33,673 nucleotides of DNA, from assembly GCA_938015525.1 (NCBI GenBank), contig CALLPC010000031.1, forward strand, positions 1 to 33,673, given 5' to 3'. The notes under the pieces were generated by a model that was not told where the DNA came from, made no database searches, and saw nothing but the letters and a program-made list of their open reading frames with translations. This stretch comes from an uncultured Dehalococcoidia bacterium (GTDB lineage Bacteria; Chloroflexota; Dehalococcoidia; Tepidiformales; Tepidiformaceae). A program made the translations under genes and the position numbers. Shown piece after piece: positions 10,814-15,431 of the stretch; the stretch's first letter is position 1, and each line of letters opens with the position of its first letter.

Positions 10814-11566
10814 ATGGCCGTCGAAGCACCACCCAAGCCAACCCTCGCCGATAAGATCTACGACAAGCTCTTCCACAACTACGTCTGGAAATCGATCTTC
10901 CGCACCGGCTACCCGAACACGCCGCGCAACCAGATGCTCATCGTTGCGACGAACGTGTTCCTCCACCTCCACCCCACCCGCATCCACCGCACCCACGTCA
11001 AGATCACCCACACCTACTGCCTCGGCGGCCTCTCCTTCTTCATGTTCCTCGGCCTCACCGTCACGGGCATCCTGCTGATGTTCTACTACGTGCCCTCCGT
11101 CGAACGGGCCTACCTCGATATCCAGAACATCACCACCACCGTCCAGTTCGGCCAGCTCATGCGCAACATGCACCGCTGGATGGCCCACGCCATGGTCATC
11201 CTCGTCTTCCTCCACATGATGCGCGTCTTCTACACCGGGGCATACAAACCGCCGCGCGAGTTCAACTGGGTCGTCGGCGTCATCCTCCTCGTCCTCACCT
11301 TCCTCCTCAGCTTCACCGGCTACCTCCTCCCGTGGGACCAGCTCGCCTTCTGGGCCATCACCGTCGGTTCGGAGATCGCCGGCTCCGCGCCCGTCCTCGG
11401 CCCCAAGACTCGCTTCTGGATGCTCGGCGGCTTCGAGGTCGGCCCGAACGCCCTCATCCGCTTCTACACGCTCCACGTCATCGGCCTGCCGCTGCTTGCT
11501 GCCATCTTCATGGCCGTGCACTTCTGGCGCATCCGCCGCGACGGTGGCCTCGCGCGGCCGCTCTAA
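10814..11566 (+). CDS. cytochrome b, N-terminal b6-type subunit of a quinol:cytochrome c oxidoreductase
   Basis: 250 aa, four membrane helices, the heme-carrying half of a split cytochrome b. Heme ligands are His120/His134 (13 residues between) and His221/His236 (14 between); 13 plus 14 is the b6 pattern, whereas bc1 cytochrome b has 13 in both. Cys69 in [11 protein letters not shown] aligns with the b6/QcrB cysteine that binds the extra heme ci (heme x) covalently at the Qn side. [15 protein letters not shown] is the family's Qp/cd-helix signature, and the protein ends after helix D as b6 does. The next gene supplies the C-terminal half. The quinone is probably menaquinone, an inference from the expected lineage. 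Confidence 0.95.
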
Positions 11567-11602: not shown

Positions 11603-12493
11603 ATGGCAACCGCAGTCGTAGCCCGGCCCGTCGCGCGGCCTCAGCCCCGCGCCCGGGATGAAGAAGTCCTCGTCTGGCCCGACCTCATCTTCGTCGAATT
11701 CATCTCGGCGCTCGTCTTCACCGTCGGCCTCCTCATCCTCTCGACGTTCATGAACGCGCCGCTCCTCGACCAGGCGAACCCGGATGTCACCCCAAACCCC
11801 TCCAAAGCGCCCTGGTACCTCCTCAACCTCCAGGAGCTCCTCCTCCACATGAACGCCGCGATGGCCGGCATCATCGTGCCGACCGTCTGGCTCATCCTCC
11901 TCGCCGCTTTCCCCTACTTCGACCGTGATAACGAAGGCCAGGGCGCCTGGTTCGCTACCGAAAACGCCTGGCGCATCACCATCGTCTCCGGCCTCGTCGC
12001 CTTCTTCGGCACCTGGCTCCTCATCCTCTGGGACACCGGCAAAATCGCCCACTTCCTCAACGCCTGGTTCGGCCTCTCCGGCGGGGATACCCTCCGCTTC
12101 CTCGAAAACGTCCGCTCCATGCAGTCCCAGCTGCCCTGGCCCGAGTGGTCCCGCAGCATCACCTACCTCCCCTTCGAACTCCGCATCCTCGACGGCACCG
12201 GCCGCGGCGGCCCCACCACCTTCCAGCATCTCGACTTCCCCGGCTGGCTCGTCGAACAGGCCATCCCCATCACCTCCCTCGTCGGTCTCCCCAGCCTCCT
12301 CATCTACACCCTCTGGCGCATGGGCTGGGTCGTCAGTCGCCGCGACGCACTCCTCGCCCTCTTCACCGGCTTCGTCGTCGTCTTCGGCGTCCTCACCCTC
12401 GTCGGCACCGCGTTCCGCGGCCAGGGCCAGGAGCTCGTCCTCCCGTGGCAGCTCAAGGTGAGCGAAGGCATCCCGGGCCAGGAGGCACACTGA
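11603..12493 (+). CDS. cytochrome b C-terminal half / subunit IV-like protein
   Basis: 296 aa, clearly longer than plant subunit IV (about 160 aa), with a cytoplasmic N-terminal extension of about 25 residues and extra helices. [19 protein letters not shown] (65-83) corresponds to the Qp-site region; the PEWY tetrad of bc complexes is APWY here, so the quinol-site Glu is missing, as in some menaquinol-using complexes. The helices at about 30-50, 85-105, 127-148, 222-242 and 255-275 fit a C-terminal cytochrome b domain with additional TM segments. GAGAGGGG lies just upstream of the ATG. The gene is 36 nt downstream of cytochrome b and ends 1 nt before the Rieske ATG. Confidence 0.9.
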
Positions 12494-12494
12494 T

Positions 12495-13103
12495 ATGGCA
12501 CAGGCTGAATCCGCACCCCGCGCCACCGGGCGCATCGAACGCGCGCGCCAGATCGAAGCCCGCAAGCTCGCCCGGCGCTCCTTCCTCCGTGTCAGCGCCT
12601 TCGCTGGCCTCACCCTCTTCACCGGGAGCCTCCTCGCCAGCTTCCTCGCCTTCTTCAACCTCCGCAAGCCCACCGGCTTCGGCGGCGTCGTCACCGTCAC
12701 CCCGGACCGCATCCCGCGCCCCGGCAGCGACCCCGTCCGCATCCCCGAGGGCAAGTTCTGGCTCGTCAACCTCAACGGCCCCGAGGGCGACGTCCTCCAG
12801 GCCGGCGGCACCGGCGGCCTCCTCGCCCTCTACTGGAAGTGCCCCCACCTCGGCTGCACCGTCCCCTGGAACCCCGCCTTCAACGGCGCCACCGTCAACT
12901 TCCCCGGCATCATCGGCTGGTTCCGCTGCCCCTGCCACGGCTCCACCTACTCCAAGGCCGGCATCCGCGTCTACGGCCCTGCCCCGCGGCCCATGGATAC
13001 CATGGCCATCCGCGTCAATGCCGACGGCTCCGTCAGCGTCAACACCGGCCAGATTACCGGCGGCGCAGCCGATAACCCCCTGCGCGCCGTCCCCTACGCC
13101 TAG
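12495..13103 (+). CDS. Rieske [2Fe-2S] iron-sulfur protein, Tat-type
   Basis: 202 aa. The N-terminus has a twin-arginine motif ([11 protein letters not shown], 26-36) and a membrane helix at about 32-53 that should stay as an anchor. The C-terminal Rieske fold has box I CPHLGC (Cys116, His118, Cys121) and box II CPCHGS (Cys145, Cys147, His148). Cys116, His118, Cys145 and His148 are the cluster ligands and Cys121-Cys147 the disulfide. A rather long insert lies between the boxes. The protein passes electrons from quinol oxidised at the b subunits to the next carrier, which by gene order is the fusion protein at 13119. It starts 1 nt after subunit IV, so translation is probably coupled. Confidence 0.96.
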
Positions 13104-13118: not shown

Positions 13119-14969
13119 TTGAACACCCAGAAGCAGATCATCCTGATCGTCGCCCTCCTCTTCATGACCGTCGGCGGCTGCGCCGCCTACGCCGCCATCG
13201 ACCTCCCCGTCCGCGCAGACTCCCAGGCAAAGTGGACCCTCGACCAGTCCCGCGAGCGCGGCGCCCTCCTCTATGCCAACAACTGCCGCACCTGCCACGG
13301 CAACCGCGGCGAGGGCGGCGTCGGCCTGCCCCTCGATACACCCGAGTTCAAAAACCAGGACCCGCTCGTCCTCGCCGCCAACAAGGCAATGCTCCGCCGC
13401 ACCCTCTACTGCGGCCGCGCCGGGAGCCGGATGCCCGCCTGGCTCAACACCAACGGCGGCTCCCTCAACGCTGTCCAGATCGAACACCTCATCAACCTCA
13501 TCACCGCCCCCGAGGACACCGAAGTCGACGGCGTCCCCACCTCCAAATGGTGGCTCGAAGCCGAGCACTTCGCCCATAACCTCAACACCGAGCTCGTCGC
13601 CCTCGTCAGCGGCGACACCCTGGGCACCATCGCCCGCCAGCACGGCATCGGCTACGCCGAAATCTCCGCCGCCAACGGCAACCGCAACATCGACGAAGTC
13701 CTCCCGAAAAACACCCGCGTCCGTATCCCGGGCTTCGGGGCGATGCCGAACGGCTACGTCTACACCGTCTACAAGGAGAACGAGACCCTCCGGAAGATCG
13801 CCGACAGCCAGCTCGTCGGGCCGGTCATCATCGCCGACCTCAACGGCTTGAAGTACACCTACGAGGAGAAGCGCGGCGTCGCCACGATGCAGCTGCTGAC
13901 CGACGACGGCAAGCCCCGCGCCGGCCTCTTCCCCGGCGAAACTCTCAAGCTGCCCGAGGGGGCGACCTACATCATCGCCGCCGGCGACACCCCCGCTTCC
14001 ATCGCCCAGCAGCACGGCATCGCTGTCGCCGACCTGCGCCAGCTCAACCCCGACATCTTCAGGGGCGTCGGCGATACCGAAGAGCTCGAGCATCGCCGAC
14101 AGCTCAACCTCCCCAATCCCGTCTATATCGCGAAGGAGGGCGAAACCCTCGCCGAGATCGCCGAGATGCACGGCATCACCGACGTCGCCGCCCTCGCCAC
14201 CCGCAACAACCTCGACCCCGCGGCGCCCGTCGTGAACCCCGGCCAGGAGATTCGCCTCCCCGACGGGACCCGCTACATCGTCGGCCTGGCCGATACCTGG
14301 GAGTCTGTTGCCGCCAGCCACCGCACCTCAGTCGCCGAGCTCGCCCGCGCCAACCAGGCCGACCCGGCGACCCCGCTCAGCCAGGACGTCGTCATCCGCC
14401 TTCCCAGGGTCGACCGCTACACCGTCAAAGGGCAGACGCTCGAAGAGGTCGCAGCCGGCTTCGCCAACGTCACCGCCGCCACCCTCGCCGAGGCGAACGG
14501 CATCCAGCCGAACAGCATCCTCGCCATCGGCACCAGCCTGAAACTCCCGGACTCCGCCTGGGGCACCGCCCCGCCCGACACCATCAACCCCGGCACCGCG
14601 TGCGTCCAGTACGCGATCCCGAACGCCGTCTTCGAAACCCTGCCCGGCCTCGGCACCCCGGTCAGCATCGAAAAGCCCGCAGAGTTCAGCACCCAGGTCA
14701 CAATTGAAGCCCACGCCAACGACTGGACCATCGTGGCCGACGGCCAGCGCAAGCAGCCCAACCTCGGCGGCGTCAAAGTCAAACCCGGCACCACCGTCAC
14801 CTTCACGTCCATCGTCGGCCTCCACAACATCGTCTTCAACGGAACCGCCCAGGGCCCCGACCTCCGCCAGGGCGATACCCGCCAGATCACGATGAACACG
14901 CCTGGCGAGTTCAAAGTGACCTGCGATTACCACCCGCCGATGCTCGCCTACATCTGGGTCGAGTCATAA
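13119..14969 (+). CDS. cytochrome c - six LysM - cupredoxin fusion protein
   Basis: 616 aa, exported. The N-terminal hydrophobic segment 7-27 contains VGGC at 18-21, which may be a lipobox or part of a TM anchor. A class I cytochrome c domain follows (about 44-130): heme site CRTCH at 56-60, axial Met105 in SRMPAW. Then come six LysM-like repeats at about 157-205, 213-279 (with an insert), 283-333, 335-382, 385-430 and 433-478, each with a GDTL/GETL-like start and an IRLP/LKLP end. The C-terminal domain (about 522-616) is a cupredoxin with type-1 copper ligands His569, Cys602, His605 and Met608; C-x2-H-x2-M is the amicyanin spacing. The TTG start has AGGAGG at 13108-13113. It is the last gene of the bc operon and probably its electron acceptor. 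Confidence 0.88.
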   Translation: MNTQKQIILIVALLFMTVGGCAAYAAIDLPVRADSQAKWTLDQSRERGALLYANNCRTCHGNRGEGGVGLPLDTPEFKNQDPLVLAANKAMLRRTLYCGRAGSRMPAWLNTNGGSLNAVQIEHLINLITAPEDTEVDGVPTSKWWLEAEHFAHNLNTELVALVSGDTLGTIARQHGIGYAEISAANGNRNIDEVLPKNTRVRIPGFGAMPNGYVYTVYKENETLRKIADSQLVGPVIIADLNGLKYTYEEKRGVATMQLLTDDGKPRAGLFPGETLKLPEGATYIIAAGDTPASIAQQHGIAVADLRQLNPDIFRGVGDTEELEHRRQLNLPNPVYIAKEGETLAEIAEMHGITDVAALATRNNLDPAAPVVNPGQEIRLPDGTRYIVGLADTWESVAASHRTSVAELARANQADPATPLSQDVVIRLPRVDRYTVKGQTLEEVAAGFANVTAATLAEANGIQPNSILAIGTSLKLPDSAWGTAPPDTINPGTACVQYAIPNAVFETLPGLGTPVSIEKPAEFSTQVTIEAHANDWTIVADGQRKQPNLGGVKVKPGTTVTFTSIVGLHNIVFNGTAQGPDLRQGDTRQITMNTPGEFKVTCDYHPPMLAYIWVES

Positions 14970-15006: not shown

Positions 15007-15034
15007 GAAAGGGGGGCCCTGCGGCCCCCCTTTC
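15007..15034 (+). terminator. terminator of the cytochrome bc operon
   Basis: GAAAGGGGGGCC (15007-15018), loop CTGC, and GGCCCCCCTTTC (15023-15034) form a perfect 12-bp stem 37 nt after the stop codon. There is no real T-tract. The next promoter starts 4 nt later, so the hairpin separates the two units. Confidence 0.8.
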
Positions 15035-15128: not shown

Positions 15129-15431
15129 ATGGCAGCAGCCCAGACTGGCAAACGCTACGTCGTGCCCGGCGGCGTCGCCGAGTTCATCGTCACCAAGGGG
15201 GGCAACGGCGAACTCCGCTGCGGCGATGTCCCCATGCAGATGCGGGGCCAGGAAGACCCGAGCGTCACCGTCGACACCACCGGCATGGAGACCGTCCAGC
15301 TCGGCAAACGGTACCGCGATGAGCAGACAGGGATCGAAGTGCTCGTGGTCAAGCCCGGCCCCTGCGCGCTCAACGTGGACGGTCGTCCGATGGAGCTCCT
15401 CCAGCCCAAAGTCCTGCCGTCCGCGGACTGA
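15129..15431 (+). CDS. tandem degenerate desulforedoxin-like protein, 100 aa
   Basis: A small soluble protein with an internal duplication: GKRYVVPGGVAEFIVTK...ELRCGDVPM (7-36) and GKRYRDEQTGIEVLVVK...ALNVDGRPM (59-88). Each half follows the desulforedoxin / desulfoferrodoxin N-domain pattern Y-x-C-x2-C-G-x-hydrophobic ... G-x-L-x-C-C-G-x-x-M. The metal cysteines are gone, apart from Cys31 in unit 1 and a displaced Cys79 in unit 2, so neither half can hold a four-cysteine iron centre. It ends LLQPKVLPSAD. Start ATG 15129 with AGGGG nine nt upstream and its own promoter. It follows the respiratory operon but is separated by a terminator. The function is unknown; the homology is inferred from pattern only. 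Confidence 0.75.
   Translation: MAAAQTGKRYVVPGGVAEFIVTKGGNGELRCGDVPMQMRGQEDPSVTVDTTGMETVQLGKRYRDEQTGIEVLVVKPGPCALNVDGRPMELLQPKVLPSAD

Follow-up and report, generated by a model that had tools for sequence, protein, structure and literature searches.

A cytochrome c-LysM-cupredoxin fusion as the probable electron-exit subunit of a cytochrome b6-type complex in Tepidiformaceae

The last gene of a Rieske/cytochrome b operon in the window (the whole stretch of 33,673 nucleotides analysed here) encodes a single chain that runs from a membrane anchor through a class I cytochrome c domain and an array of six LysM domains to a cupredoxin domain. This fusion is probably the subunit through which electrons leave a quinol-oxidising complex of the cytochrome b6 type, with the LysM domains as a side lobe at the wall and the copper domain near the heme. 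It is real and conserved, apparently undescribed in the open-licence literature, and a variant of a known component, the cytochrome c subunit of b6-type complexes, not a new class of system. Carriers that connect a quinol-oxidising complex with an oxidase usually diffuse freely, are anchored in the membrane or are fused to either partner; in the present case a single subunit next to the complex unites two kinds of carrier, heme c and type 1 copper, and a predicted wall anchor lies between them in the chain. The features are as follows, in window coordinates.

10814..11566, + strand: cytochrome b6-type subunit (PF00033, E 4.9e-47; best solved relative cytochrome b6 6rqf, E 1.8e-49)
11603..12493, + strand: subunit IV, the petD-like second half of cytochrome b (PF00032, E 8.9e-5)
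12495..13103, + strand: Rieske [2Fe-2S] protein (PF00355, E 1.1e-6; Cytb6fFeSPetC, E 1.6e-16, below its cut-off)
13119..14969, + strand: the fusion, anchor - cytochrome c - LysM x6 - cupredoxin, 616 aa, TTG start
13119..13208, + strand: N-terminal membrane anchor, residues 1-30 (helix 3-55 in the AlphaFold2 model)
13236..13511, + strand: class I cytochrome c domain, residues 40-131, axial Met105 (PF13442 at 46-110)
13284..13298, + strand: heme-attachment motif CRTCH, residues 56-60
13410..13412, + strand: Cys98, predicted disulfide partner of Cys495 (found in 313/313 protein entries from three overlapping sets)
13596..14549, + strand: six LysM domains, residues 160-477 (PF01476, 6 stretches; six helix pairs with strands in the model)
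14601..14603, + strand: Cys495 in the conserved return segment 478-500 (119/119 family homologues reaching its place)
14691..14963, + strand: plastocyanin/amicyanin-like cupredoxin, residues 525-615, with His569, Cys602, His605 and Met608
15008..15033, + strand: GC-rich hairpin with a short T run, a possible terminator of the operon (read from the sequence, no tool score)

The four genes follow one another in the order b6, subunit IV, Rieske protein and fusion with intergenic gaps of 36, 1 and 15 nt, in keeping with the claim of the initial annotation that the fusion closes the Rieske/b operon, and a good ribosome-binding site precedes its TTG start, 15 nt past the Rieske gene. Cytochrome b is split into b6 and subunit IV, and the YCLGG cysteine of the b6 product, which we take to be the heme c_i carrier as in cytochrome b6, is aligned with 6rqf; a split b with this cysteine is what distinguishes a cytochrome b6f-type complex. 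The fourth gene gave no match to the cytochrome f families in the Pfam scan of the window and matches class I cytochrome c. The b6 gene (10814-11566) also scores just above the cut-off of NCBIfam NF040969 (296.2 vs 290), 'selenite/tellurite reduction operon b-type cytochrome ExtP', but since the gene lies in a Rieske operon the automatic name would mislead. Located 3' of the operon, 15129-15431 encodes a 100 aa protein whose weak match to the N-terminal domain of desulfoferrodoxin (E 0.024) is below threshold.

The order cytochrome c - LysM(6) - cupredoxin, with its coordinates and ligands, was correctly read in the initial annotation, as judged by PF13442, PF01476 and ligand conservation, and export is supported by the N-terminal anchor. 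Within this anchor Cys21 lies in a lipobox-like setting (VGGC) and is kept in 120/120 family homologues; because of this invariance and setting a lipid anchor is considered, and the protein may be held by a lipid or by an uncleaved helix. The cytochrome match is just above its cut-off (PF13442, 27.6 bits vs 27), and the heme ligands C56, C59, H60 and M105 are kept in 120/120 homologues. PF01476 gives 132.2 bits vs 20.9, in 6 stretches, and the AlphaFold2 model has helix pairs flanked by strands at all six LysM places, some of the outer strands being short, so that the LysM folds the initial annotation had called from a repeat pattern are present in the predicted structure, as is its cupredoxin fold. 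The C-terminal domain was assigned a cupredoxin fold from the predicted structure and a fold search, whose matches are almost all cupredoxins or copper enzymes and which is uninformative on the cytochrome or LysM part. Its four type 1 copper ligands are kept in all 119 homologues long enough to include the domain. PF00127 (12 bits vs a cut-off of 21.2) and amicyanin TIGR02657 (18.3 vs 110.2 bits) both miss their cut-offs on the fusion; relatives L065, L081 and L099 do score above that of PF13473. The cupredoxin thus falls below family cut-offs, and it is assigned from its predicted fold and from ligand conservation. In one LysM-type homologue (L056:6610-8532) the axial copper Met is replaced by Gln (CDFHPEQ), which would alter the potential of the site.

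The genome of the window (2.49 Mb, 37 contigs, 94% complete) has Tepidiforma sp. KatS3mg064 and T. flava as its nearest named relatives in a tree of b6 and Rieske proteins. When 294 genomes of the class, an even sample of a larger group, were searched at E <= 1e-20, the fusion was matched in 41, of which 25 belong to the family of the window (its own genome included) and 16 matched the cytochrome part only. A protein search gave at least 287 matches at E <= 1e-10; among the best 120, which were examined, every one has the cytochrome motif and at least four LysM domains, and 119 also the copper ligands, the other (P0017) being truncated. The initial annotation knew of no described system with this architecture, and none was found in open-licence papers; the main text of the paper on cultured Tepidiforma (PMC10284905) contains neither the word cytochrome nor the word LysM.

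Rieske loci of other Chloroflexota place the fusion among its relatives. The best 80 of 136 Rieske relatives were taken from named genome records, one genome per species, mostly labelled Chloroflexi or Dehalococcoidia; they were chosen with close-relative patterns, and records very near the window's genome may be missing. An anchored cytochrome c reading frame lies 3' of the Rieske gene in 73 of the 80, the seven exceptions being contig ends (L038, L079, L105) and loci where something else follows (L067, L068, L095, L101). Behind the cytochrome, 48 of the 73 have a copper motif, as called by pattern, six a second heme (L066, L094, L096, L102, L104, L112) and 16 neither; three are truncated. 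LysM domains occur in 30 of these 73 loci (29 with four to six, and the truncated L042 with one), and the remaining 43 showed none, so that the domain order of the initial annotation recurs beside the Rieske gene in other genomes. In a Pfam scan of ten relatives, the matches above cut-off were cupredoxins in the three loci named above (two stretches in L099), one copper-binding domain (L088) and a pair of cytochrome stretches in each of L066 and L094; a copper domain was below cut-off in L085, L092 and L106, and L073 had none. Behind its cytochrome c, L099:6656-7951 carries a tandem pair of cupredoxin domains. The LysM array is replaced by a repeat with the core VERGxxGTxAxxH in L085, L091, L092, L097, L103, L107, L109, L110 and L113, and no Pfam family explained this repeat in the two scanned (L085, L092).

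The tree of Rieske and b6 proteins (71 rows) was made by a quick method; six of its rows are less than half filled, and several of its branches are long. In it, the LysM type (30 rows) makes up one side of one branch (SH-aLRT 99), as does the type without a second centre (98), and the states copper, heme and none need at least four changes. As relatives carry a second heme or nothing past the second cysteine, the LysM lobe appears to have been added to a standard exit subunit in this family alone. PMC3578206 describes the cytochrome c subunit as conserved less than any other part of such complexes in bacteria at large. A misassembly or one-off fusion is ruled out by the conserved architecture in 120 homologues, one of them truncated, together with the single LysM-type branch.

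Outside the anchor, heme and copper sites, the protein of the window has only two cysteines, Cys98 and Cys495, which flank the LysM array. Both are present in 306/306 of the entries that reach both places, where the 313 entries (120 + 120 + 73) come from sets that overlap (T. flava, for example, occurs in the database set as well as among the loci) and share ancestry, so that these are not 306 independent cases. The seven that end before the second cysteine (P0017, P0204, P0211, P0230, L042, L098, L111) were left out of this count; from their ends, the database entries P0204, P0211 and P0230 read as probable fragments. The cysteines outside heme, copper and anchor sites are even in number in 304/306, and odd in P0057 and P0156, and proteins of the L073 kind contain four cysteines altogether, two for the heme and the pair. 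Distances were measured in 300 of 309 entries; four of the nine dropped are truncated, and in the other five (P0047, P0080, P0092, P0116, P0233) the second cysteine was missed by the pattern. The gap between the paired cysteines ranges from 65 to 454 aa and is filled by LysM domains, other repeats or a 65-residue loop. From the second cysteine to the copper cysteine, the median is 109 residues (93-224, CV 0.11, n=245; 223 in L099 with its two cupredoxins), and to the second heme 44-63 residues (n=33). Segment 478-500 is conserved at 0.77, close to the cytochrome (0.79) and above the cupredoxin (0.66), unlike the linker behind it (501-524, 0.52).

The bracketing cysteines and the near-fixed distance to the second centre suggest that a Cys98-Cys495 disulfide returns the chain to the cytochrome, so that the LysM array is looped out to the side as a closed lobe and the copper lies near the heme. 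The copper domain would then sit beside the heme domain on a flexible tether of about 30 residues and could swing between the heme domain and the oxidase. In AlphaFold2 models, residues 487-514 and 102-114 of the window protein (41 sequences chosen from 121) have pLDDT under 50, and the CGQ segment of the short-linker relative P0196 (50 chosen sequences) is at about 50-65; as both cysteine regions are uncertain in the models, the disulfide is one that we infer.

The initial annotation had instead seen the array as a link between the two redox centres, with electrons handed outward. In such an arrangement a linear LysM tether would cross the wall and hold the copper domain far out, and electrons would exit the cell or reach an outer partner; the chain order of the domains agrees with this, as does the 40 nm periplasm with a wall layer of about 20 nm that PMC10284905 gives for cultured Tepidiforma. 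The array lies, however, between paired cysteines in every entry reaching both places, and the second centre keeps a near-fixed distance from the second cysteine, not the first, which speaks against the array as a spacer between the centres. Electron tunnelling is impossible between a heme and a copper tens of nm apart, the separation that a wall-crossing tether would impose. The cultured species, moreover, are strictly aerobic and oxidase-positive, with no anaerobic respiration in the experiments reported in that text (PMC10284905), and strict aerobiosis provides no reason for outward export. We therefore regard an outward relay as unlikely, a linear one through the wall as distinctly improbable, and a wall-anchored, copper-equipped exit subunit as the best reading.

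In this exit subunit, the LysM lobe would grip peptidoglycan and fix the complex, or the subunit, to the wall in a thick envelope with a single membrane. The peptidoglycan-binding array of the initial annotation stands as far as the six domains and a wall target are concerned, and binding itself is a prediction. According to PMC10284905, cultured members of the heat-loving genus Tepidiforma have a single membrane, an S-layer and peptidoglycan, the last shown by sacculi and beta-lactam inhibition. The genome of the window has an mraY match and five transpeptidase matches, and mraY is matched in 25/25 of the family genomes found in the fusion search (only partially in G129); with peptidoglycan, mraY and transpeptidases present, the wall target is there. 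Full-length homologues in the database have six LysM domains in 115 of 119 cases and four in the remaining 4, the truncated P0017 showing five; these domains, like those of the Rieske loci, were counted with a model built from the family's own repeats.

The same domains may have lost their grip on peptidoglycan and serve the exit subunit as a filler lobe of variable size, as unrelated repeats would do in other Chloroflexota. In relatives, non-LysM repeats or a 65-residue loop suffice, the number of LysM domains varies from four to six, and LysM 3-5 are among the least conserved regions (0.52-0.59), so that a spacer fits them as well as a binder; the weak conservation of LysM 3-5 and the relatives without LysM speak against an essential binding role. 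According to the text of PMC10284905, moreover, the cell-wall hydrolysate of a cultured Tepidiforma species had no detectable DAP or lysine. On the other hand, at least four LysM domains are kept in all 29 full-length LysM-type proteins of the loci and in all 119 full-length database proteins, and the LysM folds are intact in the model. We consider a mere filler somewhat unlikely, with appreciable weight left to it. An array of fixed length as a spacer is ruled out by the variation from four to six. Peptidoglycan as the sole reason for the lobe is likewise ruled out, as genomes without a LysM match also have mraY: it is matched in 16/16 genomes of the class that match only the cytochrome part of the fusion (weakly in G222), and peptidoglycan alone is thus no predictor of the lobe.

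As to the path of the electrons, among 22 good family genomes (>=90% complete, <=5% contaminated) the fusion is the sole PF00034 match in nine, and the other 13 have exactly one further match, in a frame of 516-918 residues. The genome of the window is of the latter kind; its second match is a CopC - CopD - cytochrome c protein (L126:1080-3332, contig C8), the sole other PF00034/PF13442 match there. Within the genus, PF13442 matches two places, the fusion and one longer frame, in each of five genomes >90% complete, and only the longer frame in a sixth (72% complete). These counts apply to the two profiles, which miss some c-type cytochromes. A COX2 match is found in 37/38 family genomes, including 22/22 good ones, and a cytochrome b match in 36/38 (exactly one in 32) and in 22/22 good ones, with more than one among these only in G296. 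The window's genome has two COX1 genes, and a cytochrome domain is absent from both of its COX2 proteins. The fusion being the only class I cytochrome c found in 9/22 good genomes, and the CuA oxidase subunit being matched in all 22, it is likely to be the complex's electron exit. Its heme c domain would accept electrons from the Rieske protein, and with few cytochromes c and COX2 lacking a cytochrome domain, the most likely path leads from heme c through the fused plastocyanin-like domain to the CuA site of the oxidase, which would make a free cytochrome c unnecessary. The position between Rieske protein and oxidase proposed in the initial annotation is thus supported, as a predicted role. 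Weak COX2-profile matches also occur in frames of about 680-756 aa in family genomes such as G118, G195 and G107, which we presume from their resemblance may be nitrous oxide reductases, another possible electron acceptor.

Three PF13473 cupredoxins score above cut-off in the window's genome, none of them the fusion gene, and one lies within a cox operon (L123:2481-3563, contig C21; 360 aa, with hydrophobic stretches). It is a possible docking or relay partner of the fused copper domain; since separate cupredoxins exist, the fused domain need not be the last carrier, and they could still take part in the electron path. If heme c passed its electrons directly to such a separate cupredoxin, the fused domain would lie off the main path and might store or deliver copper or sense the redox state, and 16 of the 73 Rieske-adjacent relatives do have the cytochrome and the cysteine pair with no second redox domain. 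Yet all four copper ligands are invariant (119/119) and second hemes occupy the same place in relatives, which favours electron transfer over copper storage and makes an off-path role improbable.

More tentatively, and with rather less confidence than in the exit subunit itself, we propose that the Tepidiformaceae complex is bolted to the wall: the b6-type complex, the heme c/plastocyanin pair and the six-LysM lobe thrown out into peptidoglycan by the disulfide may form one fixed unit, and the cysteine-clamped socket may take either copper or heme across related Chloroflexota. We know of no other respiratory complex with a predicted peptidoglycan anchor, and none was found in open-licence papers. 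The way in which copper and heme replace each other after the conserved cysteines offers a natural experiment on subunit evolution, and the cultured Tepidiforma species make the proposal testable.

The fusion can be compared with several known systems. The LysM cell-wall proteins known to us are hydrolases, spore or surface proteins; both the sequence and the predicted fold of the fusion show six LysM domains, but its array is inside a respiratory subunit. The three-domain copper nitrite reductase of Hyphomicrobium denitrificans (6tfd, 2dv6) shares a cupredoxin fused to a partner redox unit, but reduces nitrite and has neither a quinol-oxidising complex nor LysM domains. In contrast to amicyanin and plastocyanin, the cupredoxin here is a domain of the fusion, and it is far under the cut-off of the amicyanin model. 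In the cytochrome b6f chain, a b6-type split cytochrome b is followed by a heme c acceptor (cytochrome f) and then by a plastocyanin-fold copper carrier. The fusion has the same split b, heme c acceptor and plastocyanin-fold carrier, but joins heme and copper in one chain, uses a class I cytochrome c and has the LysM domains inserted. To our knowledge, QcrC of the actinobacterial bcc-aa3 complex has neither copper nor LysM domains. It has two hemes (two CxxCH sites) and works with a single-chain cytochrome b, whereas the fusion has one CxxCH, a copper site and a split b; the QcrC model NF050122 gives the fusion 21.2 bits vs 200. A two-heme form nearer to QcrC is present in the six two-heme loci listed above (L066 to L112). 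PMC8361435 describes QcrC as a diheme cytochrome cc subunit in bacteria in which small c-type cytochromes are missing. Both QcrC and, by its predicted role, the fusion are subunits of a quinol-oxidising complex that carry two redox centres in the ectodomain and replace a free cytochrome c, and the fusion would thus be the copper counterpart of actinobacterial QcrC.
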